NCBI GenBank assembly: GCA_029881255.1
Contig: JAOUMY010000017.1
Coordinates: forward strand, 1-50,266
Length of the DNA stretch: 50,266 bases
From: Gammaproteobacteria bacterium
Lineage (GTDB): Bacteria > Pseudomonadota > Gammaproteobacteria > S012-40
Direction of reading: 5' to 3'
Positions 16,697 to 31,819 of the stretch are shown here, in pieces. Position 1 is the stretch's first letter; every line of letters begins with the position of its first letter. The translations under genes were made by a program, and so were the position numbers. Below the pieces are notes generated by a model that saw nothing but the letters and a program-made list of their open reading frames with translations, made no database searches and was not told where the DNA came from.

Positions 16697-17818
16697 ATGC
16701 TTACGTTTTTACGTTTATCAATCTGCCTATTTATTGCACTTTTTTCTCAGACCACAGTGGCGACTTTTAAAACCGAGGGTAGTGACCTGCTTATGGGCGT
16801 AGGCCCCGCGCATATTGCGCAAGCGGGCGCAGTCAGCGCTGACGTGGACGGCATCTATGCACTTTTCTGGAACCCCGCGGGTCTCGCTCGGTCCACAACG
16901 GGGCAAATTGCCATTTCGAGACAGTTAGATGCATCGCTCGAGACGTTCAACTTTATCGGCATTAGTCATAGCGCGAAGTTTACCCTACTCTCCGATATGA
17001 GAGTCGCCTATGCGTTTGCGTGGCTGCCACGTTTGCATGTTGCCACGTCTGGCGCATTCTCCAACGACAGTTTTGAAAACCTGTTTTTACGGTTTGCCTT
17101 ACCTGCGGTACCGGATGATTTCAATGGAGACAGCCGTTCTAAAACCAGAGACTTTCGTTTCGGCCTGGCTGTCGCGCCAGGCGCGGCTAGCCGATGGTCA
17201 GTAGGTGCCAGCATTGGCGTGGTACGTTGCGTTTCTCACTTGTGTGGCTCGACGCTCAGCGCCCCGGAGTTGAACTACACGGCACAAACAGAGGCAATCG
17301 CCATCGCGGTGAATCTAGGCACGCAGGTTCAACTCACATCAGATTTGAAATTTGCGCTCAACGTTAGAGACATCAATACGCGTCTGCACGTAGACACGAC
17401 GGTGACTCAAGGTGATCAGATCGACACACAGGTCTTCGACACAAATTTTCCACGTGACATTGTTGCAGGTTTTTCGTGGCAGGCGCACAAGACCTGGAAA
17501 CTATCCGCAGATTATCAGTCACTTTCCGGTCTCTACGGACAATATGCCATTAACCTGCAATTACTGCGCATGGGTGTAAACTATGATTCAAATCCATTTA
17601 CATGGCGTGGAGGAGTTTTGATACCGATCATACTTCGCACCGGATTGAGCCAAAATCTAAGACAGGACCTCCCTGCGCCACTAGTACCCAGCGCCGGCCT
17701 GACATGGCGTATCAGGTCATTTATCGTTGACCTTGCGCTTTACCCTCACCCTGTGATGAGCTATCACTACAAACGTTTAAGCCCGTCCGCGGACGCATCA
17801 ATTACTTTACATTTCTAA
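16697..17818 (+). CDS. PorV/FadL-like outer membrane beta-barrel protein
   Basis: A 373-residue predicted barrel. After a signal peptide ending near TTVATF, the mature start MGVGPAHIAQAGAVSADVDG followed by ALFWNPAGLA matches the PorV/PorQ (UPF0164) and FadL-superfamily N-terminus. The rest alternates aromatic and polar residues, as expected of strands, and ends ASITLHF, a typical barrel C-terminus with terminal Phe. In Bacteroidetes PorV works with type IX secretion, but no such system is visible here, so transport or an unknown barrel role is more likely. It ends one base before the next gene. Confidence 0.7.
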   Translation: MLTFLRLSICLFIALFSQTTVATFKTEGSDLLMGVGPAHIAQAGAVSADVDGIYALFWNPAGLARSTTGQIAISRQLDASLETFNFIGISHSAKFTLLSDMRVAYAFAWLPRLHVATSGAFSNDSFENLFLRFALPAVPDDFNGDSRSKTRDFRFGLAVAPGAASRWSVGASIGVVRCVSHLCGSTLSAPELNYTAQTEAIAIAVNLGTQVQLTSDLKFALNVRDINTRLHVDTTVTQGDQIDTQVFDTNFPRDIVAGFSWQAHKTWKLSADYQSLSGLYGQYAINLQLLRMGVNYDSNPFTWRGGVLIPIILRTGLSQNLRQDLPAPLVPSAGLTWRIRSFIVDLALYPHPVMSYHYKRLSPSADASITLHF

Positions 17819-18531: not shown

Positions 18532-19155
18532 TTAGAGTTGACCCGTTTTAAGAAACTGTACAGCCCTGCTGGCCACATGTGGGGAAAACAACATTCCGGT
18601 ATGACTGCTACGCATCACAACATGTTGTGTCAACCATGGGGCACAAGTTTCCGACACAGATACCGCCCCATCACATGGTTTTTCCAGGTTTGTCACCAGA
18701 CGCCCCAATCCAAGAGGACTTTCACCTGAAATCAAGCCGATATCATAGCCCTCCAACGGCGTTACGCCGTTGACGAGTATATCCGCACTTCTACCAAGCA
18801 TTGTTCTGCCAATGGAAGAACGATTTAGCGTTTGCGCGGCTTTGCTACCCTGTAGCGGCGAGCCCAGCATTAGCACTCTGCGCAGATTTTCCGGGTGATA
18901 TTGACGAATATATTGCGTGGCAATAAGACCACCAAGGCTATGAGCCACGATTGAAAAAGACTTTCCATTTAAACTGGTAATCGCTTGGTGCAGAGCAAGT
19001 ACATTTGCCTCAGGTGAACGTCTTACAGTTCGATAAGAGAAGTTGATAACATCGTAACCAGCTCGACGGAAAAAACGGGCCAAAAAACGCATGACTCCGG
19101 CGCGTGTCCAGATTCCGTGAATCAGCACAACGATCGGCTTTTCAGCTTTTTTCAT
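18532..19155 (-). CDS. Alpha/beta hydrolase, lipase-like (PGAP1-type)
   Basis: A 207-residue alpha/beta hydrolase. The oxyanion segment VVLIHGIWTRAG and nucleophile elbow IVAHSLGGLIA are clear. DGAVSVSE and RSSHTGMLF supply plausible catalytic Asp and His, as in lipase/PGAP1-like esterases. No signal peptide is evident, so it is probably cytoplasmic. It is the last gene of the long minus-strand operon, 9 bp after the AgmX/TonB-like gene, which suggests co-expression with the envelope machine, but a functional link is unproven. Confidence 0.8.
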   Translation of the reverse strand: MKKAEKPIVVLIHGIWTRAGVMRFLARFFRRAGYDVINFSYRTVRRSPEANVLALHQAITSLNGKSFSIVAHSLGGLIATQYIRQYHPENLRRVLMLGSPLQGSKAAQTLNRSSIGRTMLGRSADILVNGVTPLEGYDIGLISGESPLGLGRLVTNLEKPCDGAVSVSETCAPWLTQHVVMRSSHTGMLFSPHVASRAVQFLKTGQL

Positions 19156-19164
19156 ATCAGATTT

Positions 19165-20127
19165 CTATGAGGGAACAAAATTGATCGGATAGGTAACCAT
19201 GGTTTCTTCAACATCTCGTTCCCCAAAATCGACCGATTTAAGTTTGACGACGAGCTTACGTTCCAACTGGGGTGAATTTAGCTCGCTCTGCATGACTTTG
19301 CAACTTGTTACTTTGCCAGAAGGCGCGATGACCAGTTCAAACAATACCGTACCGCGTAATGACAGATTATTGCGTCGTTCCCTATTGTATAGAATTTGGA
19401 AACTGCCTTTCACTCGCTCCAGTACGAGCTCAATTTCTTCCATACTACGTCGGGCAACACGCGAGCTACCTTTACCATCTTTTTCAGATTCAGTGACTAT
19501 GGTTGATTTGACTTTGGTAAGCTCCCGCTCATTTAAGGCTGTCTGAACAGTGTCGCGAGTCAAGTGATCAGTACTTACGCCGCCACTACCTTTGTTAACC
19601 ACTCTTGTTACCGGCTTGCTTTCTTTTACTGCCGCTACGCTACCTTCGTTACTCAGCTTGCGTCTGGGATTAGTCATACGCTTCAGCTCAGGCGTGTCTC
19701 TCAGTGCCGCCAACTCGTCGCGCATGGCTAGCAAACCCACTTTGGCCACACGCTCCTTGGCACTGGGTTGCCGCTTTGGCGTAGGAGGAACTGGCTTTGG
19801 CTTTTCCGCCTTCGCGACTTGCTTCTTCGGTGGTGGTTCCTTCGGCTTCTCCGGTTGAGGCGCAGGAGGTAAGGGAAGAGGCTTGGGTTCTGGTGGCTTT
19901 TCAATCTTTTGTTTGCGTTCCATCATGACCTTGGCCACGCGCTCAGGTACTTTGATTTGTTGCTCGCGCGGTATTTCGCGTACCGGCAAGAATGGTACAA
20001 CAATACTGACGATAGCAAATACTGCGACCACACGTAACACAATGCGCTGGAATCGACTATCCAGTTCATCCGGTTGTGTATTTGCAAAACCACGCCAGCG
20101 TATTGCAGCCATCATACTACGACTCAC
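19165..20127 (-). CDS. TonB-like protein with AgmX/PglI C-terminal domain
   Basis: A 320-residue TonB-like energy transducer. One membrane segment lies near residues 29-49 (VLRVVAVFAIVSIVVPFLPV). A Pro/Lys-rich, periplasm-spanning stretch follows at about 70-125 (EKPPEPKPLPLPPAPQPEKP and PKPVPPTPKRQP). The C-terminal domain at about 235-320 contains FQILYNRERRNNLSLRGTVL, VIAPSGKVTSCKVM and VTYPINFVP, which is the AgmX/PglI-type C-terminus rather than classical TonB_C. It overlaps the adjacent ExbD-like gene by 11 bp, so it should be energised by the ExbB/ExbD pair encoded just upstream. AgmX-type proteins (GltG/GltJ) belong to the Myxococcus gliding apparatus. Confidence 0.82.
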   Translation of the reverse strand: MSRSMMAAIRWRGFANTQPDELDSRFQRIVLRVVAVFAIVSIVVPFLPVREIPREQQIKVPERVAKVMMERKQKIEKPPEPKPLPLPPAPQPEKPKEPPPKKQVAKAEKPKPVPPTPKRQPSAKERVAKVGLLAMRDELAALRDTPELKRMTNPRRKLSNEGSVAAVKESKPVTRVVNKGSGGVSTDHLTRDTVQTALNERELTKVKSTIVTESEKDGKGSSRVARRSMEEIELVLERVKGSFQILYNRERRNNLSLRGTVLFELVIAPSGKVTSCKVMQSELNSPQLERKLVVKLKSVDFGERDVEETMVTYPINFVPS

Positions 20128-20638
20128 TTACTGCCTTTTTTTGTACTGCGAGCGAGATATTGCCAAAATTGGCATCTGCGCAAGTCATCATTATTTTCTT
20201 TAAGAGACGATACGGGATTTCTCTATCCCCCATGATCGTAATCGCGCCAGTCTCTACTTTGTCACCCAATGCGCCATAAAGACGCTTATACTGAATCTGC
20301 AATTCTGTTTGCAATGGAACGATCAACGATTGATTGAGTTTTTCAACATCTGCGATAGAGGCAATTTTTCTCCCCTGTACTAACAGATCACTGCTGTTAA
20401 CCAGCAAAACCAGCGTTTCATCCGGACGTTTGCTCGAGATGGACTCAGGCAGCTTGACTGAAGACTTGCTCGATATCGTTTCTACATCCGATGAATTAAC
20501 CAAAAGAAAAAACACCAGGATAGTAAAAATATCCATGAGTGATACAAGATTTAGTGACGCACTTCCCCAACGGTTGCGTTTATCCCGATCACGTTTCCTC
20601 AATCCACGCGCGCCTAAACTTTCGCCACCAAGACTCAT
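20117..20638 (-). CDS. ExbD/TolR-like motor subunit, with conserved membrane Asp
   Basis: A 173-residue ExbD/TolR family protein: short basic cytoplasmic N-terminus (RKRDRDKRNRWG), one membrane helix (LNLVSLMDIFTILVFFLLV) and a periplasmic domain. Asp36 in SLMDIF aligns with the proton-carrying Asp25 of E. coli ExbD. Periplasmic features include LLVNSSDLLVQGRKIAS and ITIMGDREIPYRLLKKIMMT. It overlaps the second ExbD-like gene (4 bp, ATGA) upstream and the TonB-like gene downstream. With its paralogue it would sit inside the TolQ-like pentamer in the inner membrane. Confidence 0.88.
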   Translation of the reverse strand: MSLGGESLGARGLRKRDRDKRNRWGSASLNLVSLMDIFTILVFFLLVNSSDVETISSKSSVKLPESISSKRPDETLVLLVNSSDLLVQGRKIASIADVEKLNQSLIVPLQTELQIQYKRLYGALGDKVETGAITIMGDREIPYRLLKKIMMTCADANFGNISLAVQKKAVSES

Positions 20639-21135
20639 GAAGCCCCTCCTGGCGCGTCACCGATAGAAATGTCGGGAAACATTTCTTCAAACGCTGACTC
20701 ACTTCCTCTGGGATTTGCTCGCATACGCACCGCATCCATGACCTGTACCAGGGTGTCATATTCAGTATCCGGTTCAGCCAGAATCGTGGCATCACGACGC
20801 GCTGGAAAACGTTGCTTTAGGGTCGCCATAGTATCGGCCAATGCTTTGAAGTCGTACCCATTCTTGTTGCTTTCTATTTTTCTAGTAAAGCGACTACCAC
20901 GTTCGTGTATGACAACGTCGTCTTTATGAATCACGATTTCCAACTGAAAACGGTTTTGCGTTAATGATTCACCGCTCGACTCCGGCGGAAGATATAAGTC
21001 GAGCACTGTCACACGCGAAAACACCGCTGTGATCAATAGAAACGGTACTAGTATGACCATTAGATTCATAAATGCCGTAATATCCAGCTCTGTGGAACTG
21101 GCCTTACGTCTACGGCGTCTGATTCTAGCCAACAT
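20635..21135 (-). CDS. ExbD/TolR-like motor subunit, with Asn in place of the membrane Asp
   Basis: A 166-residue second ExbD/TolR-like protein: basic N-terminus (ARIRRRRRK), membrane helix LDITAFMNLMVILVPFLLIT, periplasmic domain with LYLPPESSGE and TILAEPDTEYDTLVQVMDA. By alignment of TPFID in ExbD with TAFMN here, the functional aspartate is replaced by Asn24, whereas the neighbouring paralogue keeps Asp. Its start overlaps the TolQ-like stop by one base. Two unequal TolR-like subunits with one TolQ-like protein is the composition of the AglR-AglQ-AglS motor. Whether Asn is usual in this subfamily I cannot check. Confidence 0.87.
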   Translation of the reverse strand: MLARIRRRRRKASSTELDITAFMNLMVILVPFLLITAVFSRVTVLDLYLPPESSGESLTQNRFQLEIVIHKDDVVIHERGSRFTRKIESNKNGYDFKALADTMATLKQRFPARRDATILAEPDTEYDTLVQVMDAVRMRANPRGSESAFEEMFPDISIGDAPGGAS

Positions 21136-21776
21136 TACTCATGCCCATTCTGTGAAGAAATAATATTGAGAAATTTCACGCCGACCATTTCCTGCCCATC
21201 TACAATCTCATTAGTTTTGGTTTGTAGGTAGGTGTATATCAGTAGCAGTGGTATAGCCACCATCAGGCCAAATGCAGTTGTATTCATGGCTACAGAGATA
21301 CTTGAAGACAATAGGTCTGCTTTCTCGGCTGGATCGGCATTGGACACTGCGGTAAAGGCCTGTATCAGACCAATAATCGTACCAAGCAGGCCCATCAGGG
21401 TTGCGACGTTGGCAAATGTCGAGAGATAGTGCGTCCGCTTTTCAAGCTTGGGCAAAGACTCCATCAAGCCCTCTTCCATTGCGGCTTCAATCTCCTGAAC
21501 CCTGCGATTATTATGCGCCCGAGCTAAACCATATGACAGCATCTGTCCAATTCCATAGACATTTTGCGACGTCAGTGAAAATGCCTCACGAAAACGCTTA
21601 CTGCTGACCAGGGGCTCAACTTCTTTCCACAAGGAGACATTTTCGCGTCTTACTTTTGATAAAAACAGAAAACGCTCAATCGTGATGGCAACACCAATCG
21701 CAAACACCAGCATGAGCGGATACATAAACACTCCACCGCTCTGAAAAAATTTCACAATTACTGAATATGTTTCCAT
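21135..21776 (-). CDS. MotA/TolQ/ExbB family proton channel protein
   Basis: A 213-residue TolQ/ExbB-like inner-membrane protein. TM1 lies near residues 13-35 (SGGVFMYPLMLVFAIGVAIT). The signature TM2 reads LMGLLGTIIGLIQAF, and TM3 SISVAMNTTAFGLMVAIPLLL. ATG 21776 is chosen over 21797 because a GGAGGG ribosome site lies five bases before it. It forms the stator-like channel for the two ExbD-like proteins that follow with 1-bp and 4-bp overlaps, and would drive the TonB-like protein with the proton gradient. Confidence 0.9.
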   Translation of the reverse strand: METYSVIVKFFQSGGVFMYPLMLVFAIGVAITIERFLFLSKVRRENVSLWKEVEPLVSSKRFREAFSLTSQNVYGIGQMLSYGLARAHNNRRVQEIEAAMEEGLMESLPKLEKRTHYLSTFANVATLMGLLGTIIGLIQAFTAVSNADPAEKADLLSSSISVAMNTTAFGLMVAIPLLLIYTYLQTKTNEIVDGQEMVGVKFLNIISSQNGHE

Positions 21777-21859
21777 ATACCCTCCGCCTAAAAACAATTA
21801 CTACTAATACCATTGACTCTTTTTCGGCCAAGCGATGGCATAGGCAACTCCCATGGAGT

Positions 21860-22129
21860 CTACTTAACGCTCGCCGCTTGCTTTATTTTGTATAACTCAA
21901 CTTTTCTCTTAAAATCATTCGGATCAACCAGTTCAAGTTCCTCATCGAGCATGCTCTCTATTTCAAGACCTGCCGCTGTAACAGGCTGAAGCGGACGCCA
22001 AGGCACAACATATAAGGCCTTAGGAGCCTCTTCATTTCCGATAACATTATCTGTATCCAGCTGAATCTTTTCTTCAGCTACGACTGATGAAACTGTCAAG
22101 GCCAGCAACACAAATACACGTTTTATCAT
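21860..22129 (-). CDS. Small exported protein of the motor operon, unknown function
   Basis: An 89-residue protein with a signal peptide (MIKRVFVLLALTVSSVVAEE). The mature part includes DNVIGNEEAPKALYVVPWRP and ends in a charged helix (DPNDFKRKVELYKIKQA). I do not recognise a named family. It lies between the TPR gene (8 bp away) and the TolQ-like gene, with about 80 bp before the latter, so a role in the same envelope complex is a fair inference. The APKALYVVPW segment is the best candidate conserved core. Confidence 0.75.
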   Translation of the reverse strand: MIKRVFVLLALTVSSVVAEEKIQLDTDNVIGNEEAPKALYVVPWRPLQPVTAAGLEIESMLDEELELVDPNDFKRKVELYKIKQAASVK

Positions 22130-22137
22130 AACGCCTC

Positions 22138-22749
22138 CTAATTACTCGCCTGTGCGCGCTGTAACATATCGGCCAACCAGGCATTCACCTGTTTTTCCTG
22201 ATCCGGTTCCAACTCGGCCAGCGCACGATAATGGCGTTTCGCTTTTTCGTAATCGAGCAGATAAATATCGTACAAAATCGCAATATTCATGTGCGCGCCA
22301 GCGTAGCGACTATCTATCTGTAATGCATACTTATAGGCGGTCTCTGCCTCTGCAAACCGACCCTGCTGTCTTAACACCACACCGAGAAGATTGTATGCCT
22401 CAGGACGTCGCGAATTCTTTTTCAATACTTCTCTTACCATTGACTCTGCTTCGAGCAGTCGCTCCTGTTGCAAATAAATCAAGGCGAGATTCATATTCGG
22501 TACGAGCAACTGGGGATTGGCCTTAGCCAAATTCAGAAAGATACTCTCCGCCTTGCCGTATTGGCGCGCCCTTAATAGCTTTGCCCCTTCCGCCAGAGAT
22601 TTTTTTGTTTCAGGAGAAACTGACTGTTGAAACATACCCATATTCTGTGACGGCCTGGGAATATTTGCCTGCTTACCGGCACAAGATAGCGTCAACAAGA
22701 ATATGAAAACCAAAGACGCACTAGTAAATACCGTCGAATGCACTTTCAA
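22138..22749 (-). CDS. TPR protein, probable lipoprotein (GltE/PilF-like)
   Basis: About 203 residues with four or so TPR units (AEGAKLLRARQYGKAESIFL, PEAYNLLGVVLRQQGRFAEA, AGAHMNIAILYDIYLLDYEK). The N-terminus is a hydrophobic signal ending in LTLSCAG, a weak lipobox. I place the start at TTG 22747-22749 because a perfect AGGAGG lies six bases before it; the ATG at 22767 lies upstream of that site. The gene overlaps the preceding large TPR gene by 29 bp. Likely periplasmic, anchored to the outer membrane if lipidated. Confidence 0.78.
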   Translation of the reverse strand: MKVHSTVFTSASLVFIFLLTLSCAGKQANIPRPSQNMGMFQQSVSPETKKSLAEGAKLLRARQYGKAESIFLNLAKANPQLLVPNMNLALIYLQQERLLEAESMVREVLKKNSRRPEAYNLLGVVLRQQGRFAEAETAYKYALQIDSRYAGAHMNIAILYDIYLLDYEKAKRHYRALAELEPDQEKQVNAWLADMLQRAQASN

Positions 22750-25555
22750 TGCGCTCCTCCTTGCCATATCGTGTCGGTTGAAGTCGACTTAGAGAAGCAA
22801 GGCTTTGCTTTATCCAGTCGTCGTACAAGCCATCTTTAATGCGTATGGCGTTTACCTGATACAATTCTATTGCCTTCTCTTCAAACGGATAGGCCTGTTC
22901 TTCAAGCTCCAGATTATAGGCTTCCAATTCGTCACCCTTCAGACCTTTAGGACGAACAGAATTCATTACTGATTTTGCGAAGTCTGCATACACCTCTGCC
23001 ACCCGGTGCGTCGATGCAGTACTGTATTCCGCTACTGAATAAGACGTTACTTTTTCAAAGTCGTTCAAAACTCGCTTCATCGACTTCTGCTTACGTGCCA
23101 AACTCTTCTTTAGAGGAAGGGTCAAAAGTATCTTTTTGTAGGCGGCCAGTGATTTCTCAGCTCGCACAAACATCGCCTGCGCGGCAAGATACTGACCTCT
23201 TGAGGTATTCTTCAAACTGGAAGAATCAACATATTTGACAATATCAGAATAAAGATCCGACACTGCTCTTCTGTTTTTCAGCCTACGCTGAAGTGCGACC
23301 ATTTCATTTAGTGCTTCTAAACCGCGCTCATCTGCCTGTTTGAAGGTAGCCAAATATCTCTCATAGACTTCAACAGCTTTTTGTAAATTTTCCGCCTGCT
23401 TGTATGTTTCTGCTACTGCCCACAACAAAGTGCGCTGCTGTTCTATATTACGCTCACGCATTGCCAGCCAATACATTGACTCAACAGCCTCTTTGGGCTG
23501 CTGCAATTCCTGATAGACCAGCACACGCTTTTCATGAATCTGGCTAATCAGATCATGTTTAGGAAATTCGCTGAGAAATCGATCTAGCAGAGGAATTGCG
23601 TCTTTCCATGATTTTTGATTGATAAATGCCGTTGCAGCATCAAATACTGCCTTGGCTTTCACATCAGAACTTGTCGCTGTCTCAGCGGAACGAAGAAATG
23701 TATTCGCTGCCAGACTAAAGTCACCACTCTGCTGTTGCATTTCAGCCATTTTGAAATTGGCAAGGGAAATTCGTTCGCGTATTGTCTGTTGGTTTGTTTT
23801 TCCAGCCCCGAGACTTAAAACCTTTTCGTAGCTACTAATTGCTTCCTGAAAACGCTGCTTGTCAAACGCAATATGACCTATAACTAAGTAGGCTGACGAC
23901 AAGACACTCTTGGAAGCCCGCTTATCCATGCGAACTATTTCCTTTGCTTGCAACAAGGCCTCATCAAACCGAGACAGAGCAAAGAGTCGCTCAGCAAGAC
24001 TGGAGCGTATAGTCATGATACGTTGATCATCGGGAAACCAGGTAATGAAGCGTAATGCACTCTCAGTATAGCCCGACTTCATCTCATTCTCGTTCGTCCT
24101 GGATGCGCGTTTAATTAGGTGGTCATAGCTCAAAAGAGCAGAATAAGCGGCGTCAGATGATCGATCCCGCTTAGGAAGATCGTAGGCAACGACTTCAAAA
24201 CGCTTTAGGGCTTTAAGGTAATCTCCCTGTTGATAATACAGCTCAGCAAGCAGTATCTGCTGCTCAATCGTATCCTCACCGGGGAACAGTCGGACCAACA
24301 TTTCATACCAGTTTGTGGCTAAAACGTAATCTTCATTCTTTTTCGTCTTTTGTGCGCGGGCATGATAGTGCTTGGTCAATTCCAATAAAAGGTCTCGGGA
24401 CTTAAGCCCAAATGTGCGACGTTGCTTTAAGGACAATGAGTCCCAGAATCGTTGTTGTGAGGCAAACAATTTGACGAATTCTTCCCTCGCCTGTATTGAG
24501 CGTTGAGAAAACTTTCCTTGCATATAGGCGTGTAGTCGAAGCAGTTGCATTTCCGCAGCGCGAACCTCTCCTGGGTGTCGACTTACATAAAGCCCGTAAG
24601 TTTCCGCCGCATCTTCAATACGTTCTGCCGCCATATAGAATTCCCCGAGGCGGGAGAACACTTCGAATTCGAGGCGCGGATCAGGATTACGCTGAAAAAA
24701 GGCGACCACACCTCTCTCGCCTCCTAAATACGAGAAACACAAGTTAACCGCACGGAAAACGTCGTTCAATAAATCACGTTGTAACTGAGATAGCCCATTG
24801 CTCTGAATACGATCGTCCTCGCCATAAACCACTGGCAATAGCTTTAGTTCTATAAAGAAATATTGCAGCGCATTCTCGTATTTTTCTTGCTTAAACAGGG
24901 CCCATCCAAGTTTGTAGACTGCCTTGTCATAAAAAGGCGTATTACTCCCCAATTCTAAAACCCGCGAATATGCATTTCCTGCCGCTTCATAATCCCGAAG
25001 AACGTATAGCAACTCTGCGAGTCTGAAGCGCGATTCAGGCATATACTGACTACGGGGATATTTTGCTAACAGCCTTTGCAACGTTAGCGCGGCCCCCTCC
25101 AGGTTTCCGCTTTGCTCGTATGCGCGTGACAATTGATACATAATCCAGTCAGCACGCCGGTCTTTTGGTTTAGCCTTGAGAAGGTTTTCGTAAAGCGCAA
25201 TCGCATTTTCGTAGTTCTTTGTACCATCGATATCCAGCGGATCCGTCATGGCCTCAACAGCCTCAGCGTATTGCTGTTCCTGATCGATAAACTGTTTGCG
25301 GTCACCCTCAATCATTTCTAAATCTGCGAGACGATTTAATGCGTCAGAGTAGAGAGGATGATTTACCGGCGCATCGTCGAGAAACTGGCGATATCTTTTC
25401 ATAACACGCCCGGTTTCGACTTTTTCGACTTTGGTCTTCTCAACATCTAATGGCTTATGACTCAGGCCTTTTAGCGTACCCTGGCCTCTTGCTGTACATC
25501 CACTGATGATCAACGTACCAATAGCGCCTAAGACAATTAGAGACCTCAATTTCAT
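22721..25555 (-). CDS. Large TPR lipoprotein of the envelope machine
   Basis: A 944-residue protein with a lipoprotein signal (MKLRSLIVLGAIGTLIISGC, lipobox ISGC) followed by TPR-like helical repeats almost throughout, for example FRLAELLYVLRDYEAAGNAY, AVYKLGWALFKQEKYENAL, LLAELYYQQGDYLKALKRF and AYLVIGHIAFDKQRFQEAI. No catalytic domain is seen. Such giant TPR proteins serve as scaffolds, and similar TPR proteins belong to the Agl-Glt gliding cluster of Myxococcus. Its start overlaps the preceding TPR gene stop by 4 bp (ATGA-type). Confidence 0.85.
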   Translation of the reverse strand: MKLRSLIVLGAIGTLIISGCTARGQGTLKGLSHKPLDVEKTKVEKVETGRVMKRYRQFLDDAPVNHPLYSDALNRLADLEMIEGDRKQFIDQEQQYAEAVEAMTDPLDIDGTKNYENAIALYENLLKAKPKDRRADWIMYQLSRAYEQSGNLEGAALTLQRLLAKYPRSQYMPESRFRLAELLYVLRDYEAAGNAYSRVLELGSNTPFYDKAVYKLGWALFKQEKYENALQYFFIELKLLPVVYGEDDRIQSNGLSQLQRDLLNDVFRAVNLCFSYLGGERGVVAFFQRNPDPRLEFEVFSRLGEFYMAAERIEDAAETYGLYVSRHPGEVRAAEMQLLRLHAYMQGKFSQRSIQAREEFVKLFASQQRFWDSLSLKQRRTFGLKSRDLLLELTKHYHARAQKTKKNEDYVLATNWYEMLVRLFPGEDTIEQQILLAELYYQQGDYLKALKRFEVVAYDLPKRDRSSDAAYSALLSYDHLIKRASRTNENEMKSGYTESALRFITWFPDDQRIMTIRSSLAERLFALSRFDEALLQAKEIVRMDKRASKSVLSSAYLVIGHIAFDKQRFQEAISSYEKVLSLGAGKTNQQTIRERISLANFKMAEMQQQSGDFSLAANTFLRSAETATSSDVKAKAVFDAATAFINQKSWKDAIPLLDRFLSEFPKHDLISQIHEKRVLVYQELQQPKEAVESMYWLAMRERNIEQQRTLLWAVAETYKQAENLQKAVEVYERYLATFKQADERGLEALNEMVALQRRLKNRRAVSDLYSDIVKYVDSSSLKNTSRGQYLAAQAMFVRAEKSLAAYKKILLTLPLKKSLARKQKSMKRVLNDFEKVTSYSVAEYSTASTHRVAEVYADFAKSVMNSVRPKGLKGDELEAYNLELEEQAYPFEEKAIELYQVNAIRIKDGLYDDWIKQSLASLSRLQPTRYGKEERIESAFDGIY

Positions 25556-27012
25556 CTTCGCGGCACCTGCTCGTCCAGCAATTGCGCTACAGCATAGCGT
25601 GCCTGACTCAAGTAGTTACTAACAAATAGATGCTGCTTGTCCAGAGCCTCAACCATTAATCTCTGAATTGAAAGCTCATAGTCTTTCAATAATGATTCGA
25701 GCCGCTTTCCTCTTTCCTCGAGGCGTTGCCACAATATATCCGGGTTAACAGCAGGACCATTCGATTGCGCCGTTTGGTTCCTGCTGTTTCTTAAACCGAC
25801 ATAAGGACGAACCTGTTGCTTCCAGTTTTGGAGTCTTACGGAAAGATCTCGCAGATCACGATATTGTCGAAAGGCTTTCTGAAAGTGTGTCTCTTGCAAC
25901 AGTTTACCTAATAAGTGGCCTTGGTCGCGTTTTAGCACTGTGGCGAGTCGGTCGGAAATGGCGGCATCACTAAAATCTTCACCTTGAATCAGCGCAGAGG
26001 TAATTTCACCATTGCGAATTTTGTGCGTGGTAATCTGAATGTTATCTTTGAGCATCTGGTAAATGGCGATGGCGTTCTCATAGTTATTTAGCGCATCCTG
26101 TTGAGCGCCGATTTTCTGTAACGCAAACGCAGAGGCTAAAACACCCTCTTGCACTGTAGTCTCGTGTACGGCGCCACGGGCAAGTTGCAGCCAAGGCGTG
26201 AGTGCATGTTCGTAGTCTTTTTGCTGTGAGTATGCCCAACCCAATCCCAGCATGGCTTTATGTGAGTATGGTCCATCGAGTTTTACACGTTGAAAATAGT
26301 TCACTGCCTGCTCAGGTTGATTCACTTTTAAAAAGTGAAATCCCAACGCGGTATTTGCCTTATCCGCGAGCGCTCGCATCTCCAGGCTCTTACTCTCATC
26401 TTCGCCAACTTCATTCAGGAAACTGATACCGTGTTGCAAGTCGCCAGCTTTGATTAGAGAGGCACCATGATTATAGGCCGCGTATTGATACCAGTACGGG
26501 TAGTTCTTTAGTTTCTTTAACGCATCTTCACTTTGTGTTGATCTGCCTAATTGCGCCATCAAAAAGAAATTCAGATATAGCGACTGTGATACAAGAAACT
26601 CCGGCAGTTCTCCATCCGTTTTCGATAACAACGACAAAGCACGTTCCGCTTGTCCATCTTCATAGTACTGGCGAGCAAGATAGAATCGAGCCGAATTAAG
26701 TCTGACTCTATTTTTCGCGCTTTTGGTTACCTGAGTCAGCATAGCTTCGGCATCATTTTTCAGACCGTAGCCCGAGTAAAGCAGACCCAGCAACAAGTCA
26801 AAGTCACGTTTATCCGTCGCAAGGCGCTGCATCTCCTGCTCAGCTAGCCCTCTGGTTATCGCGGTAAAATAGTCCCTCGAGTAATAGTGAAAATACACAT
26901 CACGATAACGAAGCTCGTATTCCTGAGCTGTAGTGGCAGCTATCGCCTGTTCTGAAACACTCAGGACCAAAGCAAATACAGACAGCAGAACTTTACGCTT
27001 CACTATTACCAT
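25552..27012 (-). CDS. Exported TPR protein
   Basis: A 486-residue periplasmic TPR protein: signal peptide ending SEQAIAATT, then repeats such as LLGLLYSGYGLKNDAEAML, SARFYLARQYYEDGQAERAL, HFLKVNQPEQAVNYFQRV and MLGLGWAYSQQKDYEHALTP. A C-terminal predicted coiled-coil or helical stretch starts near residue 380 (LRDLSVRLQNWKQQV). It overlaps its neighbours by 4 bp downstream and 7 bp upstream. Role inferred as scaffold in the same complex as the 944-residue TPR lipoprotein. Confidence 0.82.
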   Translation of the reverse strand: MVIVKRKVLLSVFALVLSVSEQAIAATTAQEYELRYRDVYFHYYSRDYFTAITRGLAEQEMQRLATDKRDFDLLLGLLYSGYGLKNDAEAMLTQVTKSAKNRVRLNSARFYLARQYYEDGQAERALSLLSKTDGELPEFLVSQSLYLNFFLMAQLGRSTQSEDALKKLKNYPYWYQYAAYNHGASLIKAGDLQHGISFLNEVGEDESKSLEMRALADKANTALGFHFLKVNQPEQAVNYFQRVKLDGPYSHKAMLGLGWAYSQQKDYEHALTPWLQLARGAVHETTVQEGVLASAFALQKIGAQQDALNNYENAIAIYQMLKDNIQITTHKIRNGEITSALIQGEDFSDAAISDRLATVLKRDQGHLLGKLLQETHFQKAFRQYRDLRDLSVRLQNWKQQVRPYVGLRNSRNQTAQSNGPAVNPDILWQRLEERGKRLESLLKDYELSIQRLMVEALDKQHLFVSNYLSQARYAVAQLLDEQVPRR

Positions 27013-27536
27013 TGCTTTACCAACATTTCCGGCTGCAATCTCGATTCTTTATCTCGCAAACGTAGCTCCAAGAATACGGGGGGCGCACCTTTCATAAATT
27101 TATACCGCAAAGCTTTCTTGTAAGGTTGATTGCGTGGACCGACACCTTCTATAAAGGCTGTCATCCGGTGTTCTCCCTGAGCAAAATTTCCGATATAAAC
27201 ACGGTTAGCTGCTCCCTTCTCCAATCCGTCAGTTTCGTGATCGTGATAGTCTCTCTGCGCTACAGTTTCATTGTCGATCACTATCTTGAGCGAATGTAGG
27301 CGGAAAAATTCGCCAACGTCAACGGTTAGAAATACAGACACCCGTTGTTCGTCAGGAAACGTATTCTGGCGTTCAAATATATGCATGTCTTTTCCGATAT
27401 CAATAAACTCACGTTTGATTTCGATCGCCCTGTCATCAAGAAACTGCAATTCAATATCAGCGCTCTCTGCGTACGCAAAGCCCGAAACAAGCATATGCAA
27501 GACAATTAATACAATTCTTTTCATTACAAAATACAT
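27006..27536 (-). CDS. Exported protein of unknown function in the motor operon
   Basis: A 176-residue protein with a signal peptide (MKRIVLIVLHMLVSGFAYAE). The mature part has VFLTVDVGEFFRLHSLKIVI, then FAQGEHRMTAFIEGVGPRNQ and a closing VFLELRLRDKES, which suggests a beta-sandwich-like periplasmic domain. I do not recognise the family and see no DNA-binding motif. A second start at 27524 opens directly on the signal peptide; neither ATG has a clear ribosome site. It overlaps the next TPR gene by 7 bp, so it is part of the operon. Confidence 0.7.
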   Translation of the reverse strand: MYFVMKRIVLIVLHMLVSGFAYAESADIELQFLDDRAIEIKREFIDIGKDMHIFERQNTFPDEQRVSVFLTVDVGEFFRLHSLKIVIDNETVAQRDYHDHETDGLEKGAANRVYIGNFAQGEHRMTAFIEGVGPRNQPYKKALRYKFMKGAPPVFLELRLRDKESRLQPEMLVKQW

Positions 27537-27547
27537 TCGCTTAAGAC

Positions 27548-28231
27548 CTAGAAAAACACATTCACGCCTAATGTGGATTCAAAGTTATGGCTGGTTTTAT
27601 TAAAACCAAACACATCCGATTCATATTCACTTCCGAGTACTTCAGCGCGCAGAGAGAGCCAGTCCACTGGCATCACTCGAACACCCATACCCAGGGAGAT
27701 TGTAAAAAAGTTTTTATTACCAAACCGCAGGTCACCTGCTCCAGCGAGCATGTAAACCGATGTACTCAAAGTCCATGCCTTTCCAAGATACAGCTCACCC
27801 GGCAGGACATTCCAGCCCAGCAACACATTGTAGTATTGAAGTTCCCGCGTACTCTTGTTTCCAAACAAAGGCAGACCCAGGCGGCGAAAAACATTATCGT
27901 TAACTTGAGACAGCCCGCCATTTAGCTCGAGAAATATCGATCGTGTTGCGTGTATCGAAACTTTCGCTCCATAGGAAAAATGCGAACCAAAATCCTCTAC
28001 ACTCAGCGTACCTGCGTTTAGCCCTAATTCGACGAATTCTGTATCAATGCTGGGCACTTTTACGTCACGTCTCTGCACATCCGGCTCTATGTCAGGCAAA
28101 CTACCTGACAACTCGAATAGTGCTTCTCGTTCCTCTTGCGCCGCAGCGACCGGAACGATTAGTAACATCAGAACCACAATTATCAGTCTGGACAATATAA
28201 CCACCACTACATCTAAAAGGCGTTTTCCCAC
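27548..28231 (-). CDS. Outer membrane beta-barrel protein, Myxococcus-type small barrel family
   Basis: A 227-residue predicted outer-membrane barrel. A hydrophobic signal (VLMLLIVPVAAAQ) is followed by a short linker and by strands such as SYGAKVSIHATRSIFLELNG, YNVLLGWNVLPGELYLGKAW and LGMGVRVMPVDWLSLRAEVL, ending NVFF. The pattern resembles the small OMP_myx_plus type barrel that accompanies Agl/Glt-like clusters; this assignment is by pattern only. It overlaps the SH3-barrel gene upstream by 19 bp and would form, with it, the outer-membrane part of the machine. Confidence 0.72.
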   Translation of the reverse strand: MGKRLLDVVVVILSRLIIVVLMLLIVPVAAAQEEREALFELSGSLPDIEPDVQRRDVKVPSIDTEFVELGLNAGTLSVEDFGSHFSYGAKVSIHATRSIFLELNGGLSQVNDNVFRRLGLPLFGNKSTRELQYYNVLLGWNVLPGELYLGKAWTLSTSVYMLAGAGDLRFGNKNFFTISLGMGVRVMPVDWLSLRAEVLGSEYESDVFGFNKTSHNFESTLGVNVFF

Positions 28232-28926
28232 TCAATGCGAACACCGAAGTGCTGGCTAGGTGTCTTACTCTGGATTGTACTGCCACCAACAAGCACATTG
28301 AAAAATAACGCGGACGAAGAATAGTATCTTACGCCTACAGCGTAGCTCGCGATCTGAGCACGAGCCGCTCTGGCACCGACCACACTTCTTTCAGGAACAT
28401 TGTCCATGACGCCGAAACCGGCAACGATCAGCGGATTGAAACGAGCGTATTCAAACATCTGAATATCTATGCGAGGCTGCAATACATTACTGACTGACAT
28501 CCCGCTGATAATTCTCGCAACGTGCACTCCGAAGCCAACACGTGACGAAAACCGATAACCCGCCCCGATACCATAAACCCCGCTGCCATCCAGCCAACCA
28601 AATCCTGCAATGATTTTCTTTTGTCCCAGCGGCGCATTTAGCAAATTGACAGGGCGGCGATAAACGGCACTGAGCACGTCTTCTACTTGCAACCAGCCTT
28701 GGACATCGTCATTTAGTCTCACCAACATCCACTCATTTTGTTGCCGGATCAGAGTAACTGTTTCACCTTTTTCAACAACGTAGAATATTGGATACGCTTC
28801 ACCAGGGCCTTTACGCATTTCAACGAACTCAGCGCCGATCGTAATACTCTCCTGGGCGTCGCTGGCCGTGCCCCACATTGCAATGGCGAAAAACAGGCTA
28901 AGGATTATTGCTGGGCGATAATGCAT
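28213..28926 (-). CDS. SH3-domain plus beta-barrel outer membrane protein
   Basis: A 237-residue fusion. After a signal peptide (LSLFFAIAMWGTASDAQ) a bacterial SH3 domain spans about residues 28-90 (AEFVEMRKGPGEAYPIFYVV, VTLIRQQNEWMLVRLND, GWLQVEDV). A small beta-barrel domain follows (AGFGWLDGSGVYGIGAGYRF, VRYYSSSALFFNVLVGGSTI). SH3 domains of this type often bind peptidoglycan or peptide stems, so the protein could tie wall to outer membrane. ATG 28926 (MHYRPA) is preferred; ATG 28935 is an alternative. It overlaps the cytochrome gene upstream. Confidence 0.75.
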   Translation of the reverse strand: MHYRPAIILSLFFAIAMWGTASDAQESITIGAEFVEMRKGPGEAYPIFYVVEKGETVTLIRQQNEWMLVRLNDDVQGWLQVEDVLSAVYRRPVNLLNAPLGQKKIIAGFGWLDGSGVYGIGAGYRFSSRVGFGVHVARIISGMSVSNVLQPRIDIQMFEYARFNPLIVAGFGVMDNVPERSVVGARAARAQIASYAVGVRYYSSSALFFNVLVGGSTIQSKTPSQHFGVRIEWENAF

Positions 28927-31819
28927 AGGGCACACTCAACTGCAAGGTCGTACCATTTGCCTGTTGGCCTGTGGCAATCCAATCAACCAGAATATTGTAA
29001 AAACTATCCCCTTCGTTCACGTAAGGAAAGCCGGAAGGATTTAACGGATGGAGTTCTGACAACATGGGTACAGCAATTATCGGATTATTCGGTGGATTCG
29101 TTACGTCATTTACATATGATGCAACCATATTGAAATCGGCGTTGACCTCCCCGATCAAATCAAAACGCGATTCCGGTGCTGACGCATGTGATCCATTGGG
29201 TTCTCCAGAAGCAAGATATGGCGAATGGCAACGTATACAACGAGCCTCAAACGCTTGCTTTACAGTTTGCCCAAACATCACAAAATCTAGCGTGGGAAGC
29301 GCGCTACGGATATTCCCGTTTTCATCAAATGGCGAATTTACAAATTGCGCACCCATGTCCACCCATTCGCTTAGGAGACGTTTTTCAACCGCTGTCATCA
29401 TTCCACTGTGGTCGAGTCCGTGGTCCGGCAAGCCACGATCAGCAAACAGTTCCTGATTAAATATTTTTTCGATCAAATAACTTCCGCGGGCATATCCAGG
29501 CGTAACAAGAGGCAGTTGTCTATGAGGAATTCGCACGCCCTCAACGTCTTTAAACATCGGATATCCATCGGTATCGTACATGACTTCGCCCATTAACAGC
29601 TTTTCATAGGAAAAACTACGACCGGACGTCGAATCACCGTTACCGAGAGTAAGACCACTGGGATTATTTTCGCTAAAGTCACCATTGTGACAAAAACTAC
29701 ACGTCGCGTTTTGCCCATCGCTTCCCGTTCTTTCACGGGTGAACAGCGGGGCTATATGTTCTTTGAAGTTAATCACGCCATTTGTAGGCGCCGGGGTTAA
29801 TAGCTGAGCATAACTAAGATCAACTATCTGATCACGAGGTCGTACGCCATCATCTGTCCAAACGTCGGAAAAAATCATTTCCTGGCGAAGTTCGACACTG
29901 GCAGGATCAAGACGTGCGCGTGTTTCCGCCATTGATTCCCCTTGAATAGCAGCACCAATAATCTGCGAACCATTTACGTCGCGCAAACTCGTGTTTCTAT
30001 GACTACCAGCAACAGGAGACTGGTTAATCGACGTGTTATCTCGCGGAGAGTGACAACCTTTACATTGCAGCGTTTCTCCGGGCAGAACATGCAACCAACT
30101 GCTCTGCGCTTGAAATGCTCGGCCATACCTGTCGACCACCTGCAACGTAAAGGACCGGTTGGCAGGAACCTTCACTTGCACCGATCCATCGGGTTCGATA
30201 GGCGCATAACCGCTAATACGGCGCATACCATAACCAGTTTCGCCTATCGCGGTTCTTGAAATTCCAGGGGGTGTAAACTGTGATTCAATCACGCGCAAGA
30301 ACCACGCGGGTCTTTGCGCGGCTGTAGTCACTGCAGGATCTTTAAGTTTTGCCAGATCAGGTATTTTTTCTCGATTGTCTTCCAGCGGGTTGAATGGCGA
30401 AGTCAATGGTATCGGGCTTAATGCGCGCTCTTCATGACTCAATGCTTCAGTGCCCATGTAGCCCAGACGGTCTGTGTCGTAGACACTGCGAATATTGATC
30501 AATCCTTCGTCTTTTTCTGGGGAAAACAAACCAGGATTTGTTTGCCCGCCCGCAATACTGGTTTGCGGTTTACTACGCACACTCAAAGCGATTGGTTCCA
30601 GGATTATTGACTCCGAACTCGCCTGCACCAACGGCAACAAACTTTTGTCCTGAATATTGAGCATATACAAGCCATATTTTGGTGCCACTTCCTGCTTTTT
30701 GATTTCAAACTGATCGTTCTCGTTCAAATTGATGTCGACACTTTCCGAGTAAAAACTGTAACTGACCAAAACGTTATTCTTTCCGTCTCGAATAGGAAAC
30801 GGCGTACTGTAGCGCCCATATCGGGAGACACGATCATCTATTGGTACACGATGTATGGTAGCGCTCGTCTGTCCGGACTGACTTCGTAACTGTTCATTCA
30901 AACCAGGTGCGGGGCTATCTTCTTCAGAAAAATTTTTAACATCGAGCAGCATAATCGCACCGCCTTCCCAGGCGCTCTTAGTCGGCAGAACGGTAGCAAT
31001 GACACGACCGTCGGCAAGTTGTCTCGCATGCAATATGGCTTCAGACGTTCCATGTGCACCATAAAGAGACGCAAGACCACCGCCGTCTGGATGAATGGTA
31101 AACAAACTGTAGCGACTATTGTTTGTGGACTCGTCCCAACGGCTAAACATAATGCGACCGTCATCCATCACCACCGGATTTCGTTCATGACTTTGGCTGA
31201 AAGACAGCTGCTCGATTCGAGTACCATCACGATTCATCACATGTAATACGACAGCAGGCAAACTGCCATTGTCCTCTACATAGCGATAACCAAGTTTGTC
31301 CTGACTCGCTTGCTGGCGATTGGAGATAAAAGCGATACGACCATCCGGCAAAAACACGGGATCGAGGTCATCACCCATATTTCGCACGGTAAAATCACTG
31401 ATTACCGGATTGAGCTGTTCTGTATTCAGATCATAAGTCCAGATATTCCAGGTATCGTCGTTGGCGCACTCTTGCGCCGCTTGCGAAGAACAGCGCATGG
31501 AAAAAACTATCGTTCTTCCATCATAAGAAGGCTCTGGACCGGAAACATCACCAACGCCTTTTGTTAGCAGGCCGGTGATATTTTTTTCTTTACCGCCAAT
31601 GATCGCCAGGTCACGTAGAAATAGATCACTTCCGGGATGATATTGAACCGGATTGTTGAGACTGGCGACACTGCCTGCGTTTTGTTGGTAGGGACGCTTT
31701 ATATAGGCAATAGGACGGCTTTCGTCGACCAGAACAGGTTCTTCGCCGCCGAAATAACGACAACCTGTCGCTGGTATCGAGAGCAGTATGCAAAATGCAA
31801 CCACGAACGCGGCACGCAT
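28898..31819 (-). CDS. HzsA-like beta-propeller and triheme c-type cytochrome, probable lipoprotein
   Basis: A 973-residue exported protein. The signal (VVAFCILLSIPATGC) suggests lipidation at Cys20. Residues about 50-300 hold PD40/WD40-like propeller blades (DLDPVFLPDGRIAFISNRQQ, ERNPVVMDDGRIMFSRWDES). The C-terminal half carries three heme c CXXCH motifs: CKGCH (586-590), CSFCH (707-711) and CIRCH (861-865). This architecture resembles the HzsA-related family, named after the hydrazine synthase alpha subunit, but hydrazine chemistry is not implied. It is the first gene of the 13-gene operon and overlaps the SH3-barrel gene. A redox or metal-binding periplasmic role is inferred; substrate unknown. 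Confidence 0.8.
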   Translation of the reverse strand: MRAAFVVAFCILLSIPATGCRYFGGEEPVLVDESRPIAYIKRPYQQNAGSVASLNNPVQYHPGSDLFLRDLAIIGGKEKNITGLLTKGVGDVSGPEPSYDGRTIVFSMRCSSQAAQECANDDTWNIWTYDLNTEQLNPVISDFTVRNMGDDLDPVFLPDGRIAFISNRQQASQDKLGYRYVEDNGSLPAVVLHVMNRDGTRIEQLSFSQSHERNPVVMDDGRIMFSRWDESTNNSRYSLFTIHPDGGGLASLYGAHGTSEAILHARQLADGRVIATVLPTKSAWEGGAIMLLDVKNFSEEDSPAPGLNEQLRSQSGQTSATIHRVPIDDRVSRYGRYSTPFPIRDGKNNVLVSYSFYSESVDINLNENDQFEIKKQEVAPKYGLYMLNIQDKSLLPLVQASSESIILEPIALSVRSKPQTSIAGGQTNPGLFSPEKDEGLINIRSVYDTDRLGYMGTEALSHEERALSPIPLTSPFNPLEDNREKIPDLAKLKDPAVTTAAQRPAWFLRVIESQFTPPGISRTAIGETGYGMRRISGYAPIEPDGSVQVKVPANRSFTLQVVDRYGRAFQAQSSWLHVLPGETLQCKGCHSPRDNTSINQSPVAGSHRNTSLRDVNGSQIIGAAIQGESMAETRARLDPASVELRQEMIFSDVWTDDGVRPRDQIVDLSYAQLLTPAPTNGVINFKEHIAPLFTRERTGSDGQNATCSFCHNGDFSENNPSGLTLGNGDSTSGRSFSYEKLLMGEVMYDTDGYPMFKDVEGVRIPHRQLPLVTPGYARGSYLIEKIFNQELFADRGLPDHGLDHSGMMTAVEKRLLSEWVDMGAQFVNSPFDENGNIRSALPTLDFVMFGQTVKQAFEARCIRCHSPYLASGEPNGSHASAPESRFDLIGEVNADFNMVASYVNDVTNPPNNPIIAVPMLSELHPLNPSGFPYVNEGDSFYNILVDWIATGQQANGTTLQLSVPYALSPSNNP

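Follow-up and report, generated by a model that had tools for sequence, protein, structure and literature searches.

Inspection of a 50,266 nt contig from a gammaproteobacterium (JAOUMY010000017.1 of assembly GCA_029881255.1, forward strand; this whole stretch is referred to below as the window) revealed a block of 13 intact open reading frames (ORFs), all on the minus strand and running from position 31819 to position 18532. The first three genes code for a predicted triheme lipoprotein resembling the alpha subunit of hydrazine synthase (HzsA-like), an SH3 protein (SH3bb) and a TIGR04565 barrel; these are followed by genes of the Agl/Glt trans-envelope machinery. The genes, with the hidden Markov model (HMM) matches or other grounds for each assignment, are as follows.

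28898..31819, minus strand: HzsA-like triheme c-type cytochrome with a beta-propeller, 973 aa, predicted lipoprotein (PF18582, HZS_alpha, 67.5 bits, cut-off 26.6; three CXXCH motifs)
28213..28935, minus strand: SH3bb, 240 aa, with a signal peptide, a bacterial SH3 domain (SH3_3, 30.9 bits, cut-off 27) and a putative barrel-like C-terminal part
27548..28231, minus strand: outer-membrane barrel of family TIGR04565 (OMP_myx_plus), 227 aa (110 bits, cut-off 60)
27006..27536, minus strand: X176, a secreted protein (no family match; modelled as a helix and a beta-sandwich)
25552..27012, minus strand: GltC-like periplasmic tetratricopeptide repeat (TPR) protein, 486 aa (TPR matches; position and similarity across loci)
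22721..25555, minus strand: GltD-like TPR protein, 944 aa, predicted lipoprotein (TPR matches)
22138..22767, minus strand: GltE-like TPR protein, 209 aa, predicted lipoprotein (TPR matches; NF033758, 31 bits, below the cut-off of 225)
21860..22129, minus strand: F89, a secreted protein of 89 aa (ORF), placed in the gltF position by its position only
21135..21797, minus strand: AglR-like TolQ/ExbB-type proton-channel subunit (PF01618, MotA/ExbB, 102.8 bits)
20635..21135, minus strand: AglQ-like TolR/ExbD subunit with Asn24 (PF02472, 60.4 bits)
20117..20638, minus strand: AglS-like TolR/ExbD subunit with the membrane residue Asp36 (PF02472, 61.2 bits)
19165..20127, minus strand: GltG-like TonB-type force transducer with an AgmX/PglI C-terminal domain (NF033768, 59.1 bits, cut-off 40)
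18532..19155, minus strand: alpha/beta hydrolase (PF00561, 36.1 bits)

The HMM matches confirmed much of a preliminary description of the block, which had listed one TolQ-like and two TolR-like subunits, an AgmX-type TonB-like protein and three TPR proteins (these adjoin the motor genes) in an overlapping series headed by a large propeller/cytochrome c protein. At eleven of the 12 junctions the gap ranges from -47 to +11 nt; the remaining one, before AglR, measures 62 nt; the space between 21797 and 22138 is filled by F89, which has a signal-peptide-like start. Promoter-like sites (16, versus 20.1 in shuffled sequences) and terminator-like sites (15 versus 14.0) were found at chance level. The block is likely to be transcribed as a single transcript. 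Of the two barrels mentioned in the description, one matched TIGR04565, while the other, encoded at 28213-28935, was recognized by HMM as an SH3 protein, its barrel part being suggested by sequence features. The thirteen-gene machine proposed there was reduced to a conserved unit of 12 genes: all 13 are present in the window, but the hydrolase gene, co-directional with the block and 9 nt past GltG, was missing from all 33 other fetched loci with GltG, which rules it out as a machine component. Close to where the operon ends, the other strand codes at 16697-17818 for a PorV/PorQ-like protein (22.5 bits, below the cut-off of 90).

The structural model of the HzsA-like protein (pLDDT, the predicted local confidence score, of 84) found its best PDB match in the alpha subunit of hydrazine synthase (HZS alpha, 5c2v; Z 35.5 over 590 residues, root-mean-square deviation 3.3), while comparison of its propeller with those of TolB gave Z values of about 26-28. 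Its Cys20 was invariant across 40 rows, suggesting that the protein is a lipoprotein. In hydrazine synthase, according to the available excerpts of PMC12758564 and PMC12607021, a tyrosine four residues past the histidine of heme alphaI serves as a ligand. None of the 40 HzsA-like rows had a tyrosine at the site equivalent to this Tyr591, and the hydrazine synthase equivalog NF052339 scored 59.6 bits, far short of its cut-off of 800; hydrazine synthesis is ruled out by this score and the missing tyrosine. Further, HMM scans of the block recognized no beta or gamma subunit of hydrazine synthase among its 13 genes. The label 'HzsA-like', taken over from the preliminary description, is therefore valid for the fold, not for hydrazine synthase function. 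A plasmid search with this protein returned four records, all from Bacteroidota, none of which matched 80% of the query at a single place.

The remaining conserved genes form the gammaproteobacterial Agl/Glt core (GltC-, GltD- and GltE-like proteins, the small protein, AglR-AglQ-AglS and the GltG-like protein) plus X176. Such a core, with function unknown, was reported in Gammaproteobacteria by Luciano et al. in 2011 (PMC3169522, available sections). The Tol-Pal equivalogs all scored below their cut-offs (TolQ 73.4 bits, cut-off 221; TolR 24.8 and 24.7, cut-off 127.3; TolB 14.6, cut-off 343.15), and the AglR-like protein showed 43-65% identity to the remaining motor-clade matches. Kinship to the Myxococcus Glt proteins was judged through NCBIfam models for GltE and GltG, which matched far below their cut-offs; on the GltG-like protein, the GltG equivalog NF033760 scored 24.7 bits (cut-off 650) and NF033761 (GltJ) 24.1 bits (cut-off 450). 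GltG was seen in 33 of the 40 fetched loci. The order F89-AglR-AglQ-AglS-GltG was kept in 31 of the 34 fetched loci with AglR, and F89 preceded AglR in 33 of them, L144 being the exception. Two of the loci (L141 and L142) overlap, sharing a place at which AglR is split into two pieces, and one genome (G088) carries an AglRQS-GltG set alone, without other Glt genes (L165).

The proton carrier of TolR-type subunits is a membrane aspartate. The two TolR-like subunits showed a conserved asymmetry: Asp36 was kept by AglS in all 39 rows, while AglQ had Asn24 in 38 of 39 rows, at the site that matches AglS Asp36 by motif when the two proteins are aligned to one another by eye. Since the D28N substitution in Myxococcus AglQ abolished proton conductance and function, according to the published text available, it is probable that proton transport falls here to just one of the two TolR-like subunits.

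The co-occurrence of these genes was surveyed in 321 genomes sampled evenly over the class and including that of the window (G000), with thresholds of E≤1e-30 for AglR, 1e-20 for the HzsA profile, 1e-10 for DUF3570 and 1e-8 for an X176 profile that was built from four HzsA-linked rows and may favour that type. Matches were obtained in 72 genomes for AglR, 46 for HzsA, 83 for DUF3570 and 72 for X176. AglR was present in 42 of the 46 HzsA genomes versus 30 of the 275 without HzsA (one-sided Fisher test, 2e-28); DUF3570 (1e-30) and X176 (1e-34) were each found in 45 of the 46, all three values being read with the reservation that the genomes are not independent. In the family of the window, HzsA and AglR were both present in exactly four of 13 genomes (G000, G003, G006 and G010). 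The HzsA genomes without AglR numbered four; three of them (G078, G087, G198) are fragmented and all have X176, while the fourth (G046), a single contig, has its HzsA-like gene in pieces and gave no match for X176, DUF3570 or AglR. The preliminary description would have failed had cytochrome and motor genes rarely been neighbours, which the survey did not show: besides the co-occurrence in 42 of 46 genomes, within 20 kb of HzsA AglR was found in 19 of the 46 genomes, X176 in 31 and DUF3570 in 39. Its inference of a trans-envelope machine of Agl/Glt-like type that has a redox partner is thus supported, though for a metal-linked partner, the other option it offered, no evidence was found.

X176 was found in 69 of the 72 AglR genomes and belongs to the core of the Glt unit in Gammaproteobacteria. 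Its model (pLDDT 87) consists of one long helix and a beta-sandwich, for which a fold search returned no PDB match at E≤0.001; from its strand pattern, we read the sandwich as possibly Ig-like. Among the 23 HzsA genomes with AglR beyond 20 kb, 12 have X176 near HzsA. Eleven of these 12 loci were examined (G048, G067, G075, G088, G092, G207, G214, G216, G310, G316 and G319, not G139): GltC was present in all and GltD in 10, with no AglRQS in the next ~4 kb or more, and all 11 genomes carry AglR elsewhere. Downstream of X176-GltC in one motor-less HzsA locus lies a gene for a PccH-type cytochrome (L024:3959-4498, 183.8 bits). In a tree of X176, clusters of the plain and redox types were nearly separated (three changes versus 13.2 in shuffles; 14 of the 82 rows plain); in that of GltD they were clustered but not separate (nine changes versus 16.2). 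In the GltD tree, the label 'plain' includes clusters from HzsA genomes that are cut from the redox genes (L151-L154, L156) as well as second clusters of HzsA genomes (L138, L139, L155). The plain clusters listed have unrelated genes or none before X176, except for a TlpA-like gene in L138.

The surroundings of HzsA were compared in the 80 best-ranking of 463 confirmed places, counting downstream genes only in loci with room for them. Nearly all of these loci bear titles of Gammaproteobacteria or subgroups (for example, L040 is Thioalkalivibrio sp. XN8 and L108 Pseudomaricurvus alcaniphilus MEBiC06469), a few being broader (Proteobacteria, Pseudomonadota, 'Bacterium MnTg04'). SH3bb was near HzsA in 69 of 70 loci (missing from L075) and the TIGR04565 outer-membrane protein (OMP) in 64 of 65 (missing from L084). 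The redox side proved larger in relatives than it had appeared from the window: TlpA was present in 59 of 63 loci (missing from L046, L058, L078 and L084), DUF4266 in 58 of 61 and DUF3570 in 53 of 56 (L046, L058 and L084 lacking both), often with ApbE, and many loci also have a divergent cytochrome operon. X176 was on the same strand as HzsA in 28 of the 80 loci, divergent in 21 and unseen in 31; among the 38 loci flanked by 7.5 kb on either side, six lacked it. According to the available portions of Meheust et al. 2021 (PMC8238504), ApbE flavinylates DUF3570, and gene clusters are described that include a thioredoxin-like protein and a DUF4266 protein with a CXC end. At the loci studied here, 82 of 83 DUF4266 rows ended in CGCN or CGCD, and WCxPC was found in 89 of 97 TlpA rows.

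Related sets of genes also occur apart from HzsA. Two loci (L127, L145) have SH3bb-OMP-TlpA-DUF3570 cassettes without it, and in L145 its place is taken by a gene for a 289-aa protein similar to a small lipoprotein of triheme loci. The genome of the window itself carries a DUF4266-DUF3570-ApbE set adjoining genes for a DUF1501 protein and a 513-aa predicted lipoprotein (G000:C1:892923-894107; L033), and a second DUF3570 gene, with one SGAT motif, adjoining a DUF4266-like gene and one for a 518-aa predicted lipoprotein (G000:C5:179599-180597; L032).

The heme content of HzsA went together with the presence of the divergent operon, whose full trio codes for a monoheme protein of 408 aa, a diheme cytochrome with a LamG domain and a Tat-type (twin-arginine) protein. 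Of 81 HzsA rows, 61 were kept, their ORF being no shorter than 780 aa and the sequence upstream of it reaching 4 kb; 20 were left out. Genes of the divergent operon accompanied 44 of 45 rows with two CXXCH motifs (the full trio 42 of 45) and none of 15 rows with three, the block in the window being among the loci without it. The one diheme row lacking these genes, L046, represents the same gene as L023, where a third site reads CX3CH; a further row (L061) has one heme site and lacks the operon. The Tat-type protein is presumably of the DUF1501 type, a label it owes to its likeness to a protein of the window's own genome that has the Pfam match, the relative's protein itself being unmatched. 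For the LamG cytochrome, the window's genome has only a partial match (42.9 bits). Fragmented HzsA-like genes were seen in Panacagrimonas perspica (two ORFs; L045:8540-12724) and in G046 (L029/L146), where two short pieces adjoin the genes for the 408-aa protein and the LamG cytochrome. The HzsA tree, whose branches are long and whose root is arbitrary, grouped the window with L038, L046 and L058 (support 85), next to 20 more triheme rows; a further 55 rows were of the diheme type (including L061, with its one site). L046 is the same place as G003 of the window's family. Both other groups of the tree carry the flavin cassette, so the simplest reading, tentatively held, is that the window's lineage lost it.

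Taken together, we consider it probable, though well short of certain, that the block encodes a Glt-family proton-driven trans-envelope machine with an electron-transfer complex as its outer-membrane cargo. GltG would bring force into the periplasm, and the force would be relayed to the outer membrane via GltE, GltD, GltC, the 89-aa protein and X176. At the outer membrane, the SH3bb/OMP pair would be joined to the heme-bearing propeller lipoprotein and, in most relatives, also to the DUF3570 barrel (whose family is known to undergo flavinylation), the thioredoxin-like protein and DUF4266, electrons flowing within this assembly. Judging by its position, the TIGR04565 barrel may fill a slot like that of GltA/GltB. 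Myxococcus GltA, GltB and GltC bind each other directly, in the published account as far as available, and the SH3bb/OMP pair lies near that place; by analogy, the redox proteins would hang on the outer end of the Glt chain. We regard the redox link of the Glt machine as real, and its most likely job would be powering or moving an electron-transfer complex in the outer membrane that acts on something outside the cell. A stronger version, in which the motor drives, repositions or energizes the heme/flavin complex, with force and electrons thereby working jointly at the surface, is put forward tentatively, as an idea with the odds somewhat against it; if true, it would amount to mechanically powered electron transfer, for instance for reaching, or acting on, a substrate that is insoluble or polymeric.

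Several observations weigh against the favoured reading. AglR lies close to HzsA in only a minority of the HzsA genomes, and kinship among genomes was accounted for only by counting families (HzsA in 28, AglR in 40, both in 25). Thirty genomes have the motor and no HzsA, indicating that the Glt core has other uses, and in five genomes (G029, G047, G104, G189, G295) DUF3570 lies within 20 kb of X176 with no HzsA match; one of these (G104) shares its genus with an HzsA genome (G224). The window block itself has no TlpA-DUF4266-DUF3570-ApbE cassette, ApbE is at the locus in 34 of the 80 named loci, and a complete chromosome (L084) has HzsA and SH3bb with no OMP, TlpA, DUF3570 or X176 in the 9.9 kb downstream. 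Finally, DUF3570 at related loci mostly reads DxxSSASxD, the published motif [ST]GA[ST] occurring once in 18 of 76 rows and twice in none, so that its flavinylation is not certain.

One rival reading is that a redox/cytochrome operon and a general Glt envelope machine are adjacent systems, each with its own job, that happen to share a regulon or niche. In 27 of the 46 HzsA genomes there is no AglR within 20 kb, and 14 have neither AglR nor X176 within that distance; Glt cores without upstream redox genes exist; and the divergence of X176 from HzsA in 21 of 80 loci permits separate transcription. However, the motor-less loci keep X176 and GltC (the 11 loci were chosen for X176 near HzsA without AglR, and GltC accompanies it in all of them), and the match between HzsA and AglR holds within one family as it does across the class. 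The near separation of types in the X176 tree, less well reproduced by GltD, points the same way. Two separate systems thus appear unlikely. Slightly better placed, though still doubtful, is surface assembly of the Nfs type, in which the motor would move barrels handling an extracellular polymer and the hemes and flavins would belong to a cross-linking or maturation oxidoreductase. The Nfs precedent and the LamG domain in the relatives' divergent cytochrome speak for it, but no polysaccharide or coat gene was recognized among the gene groups present in at least six of the 80 loci.

In favour of gliding motility, the core genes are of the same kind as those of the Myxococcus motor. In the available sections of Luciano et al. 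(PMC3169522), however, the core is not sufficient for gliding, which is undocumented in most hosts. The window's genome has one roadblock (MglB-type) gene with no MglA-sized P-loop ORF within 5 kb, the sole ORF there with a G-x4-GK[ST] loop coding for a 948-aa protein on the other strand. We rate gliding as very improbable. This lone Robl_LC7 gene (G000:C2:179058-179309; L171, L172) lies beside one for a 443-aa predicted outer-membrane protein. Least credible of all is a hydrazine synthase, or other nitrogen-cycle enzyme, standing beside the motor by accident: the fold match to HZS alpha would favour it, but the equivalog score, the missing tyrosine and the lack of beta and gamma subunit genes in the block leave it next to no room.

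We therefore favour a Glt machine carrying a redox complex. To our knowledge, there is no known case of a Tol/Agl motor coupled to a redox complex, and a full-text search of the open-access literature found no paper in which a Glt core is joined to HzsA-like or flavinylated proteins. The machine is thus not new in kind, its gammaproteobacterial Glt core having been in print since 2011; it is the redox coupling that was found nowhere in print. The repeated pairing with heme and flavin proteins gives this core, which has lacked a function since then, a concrete lead in the form of a redox phenotype, and suggests that Tol/Ton-type motors may serve outer-membrane electron-transfer complexes. In addition, two core parts, X176 and the gltF-position protein, can now be named, and the TolR-like asymmetry is testable. 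Word searches found no mention of gliding, TolQ or hydrazine in the main text of PMC8238504, nor of hydrazine, TolQ, gliding, WD40, thioredoxin or PccH in the Ca. Tenderia electrophaga biocathode paper. The TolQ and ExbD genes in the available part of an Allochromatium pyrite paper could not be tied to the block.

The block resembles the core of Luciano et al. (PMC3169522), as far as the available sections describe it, in having the motor, TPR proteins and a GltG-like transducer in one cluster; an extra gene of that core without a myxobacterial homologue may be X176. It differs in adding the HzsA-like cytochrome and the SH3bb/OMP pair, to which most relatives add the flavin cassette. The two barrels and the gltF-position gene, limited in those sections to Myxococcales/Bdellovibrionales, have counterparts here by position only. 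With HZS alpha (5c2v), the first protein shares the propeller, the middle heme domain and the second heme domain; unlike it, it lacks the Tyr591 ligand, has a third heme motif, is a predicted lipoprotein and comes from a block without beta and gamma subunits. The relatives share DUF3570, DUF4266 with its CXC end, the thioredoxin-like protein and ApbE with the systems in the available text of Meheust et al. (PMC8238504), but their cassette lies inside a Glt locus, its motif is mostly SSAS instead of SGAS, and the window block has no cassette. In Myxococcus, the Nfs system (spore coat) uses the AglRQS of another locus (PMC3858216, in the part available), and the HzsA loci with X176-GltC and AglR elsewhere present a like case. 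Agl-Nfs, as portrayed there, and the block have in common a Glt-like chain, two outer-membrane barrels and an AglRQS that can be supplied from elsewhere; whereas the cargo of Nfs is a coat polymer, the outer-membrane part of the machine described here holds redox proteins.

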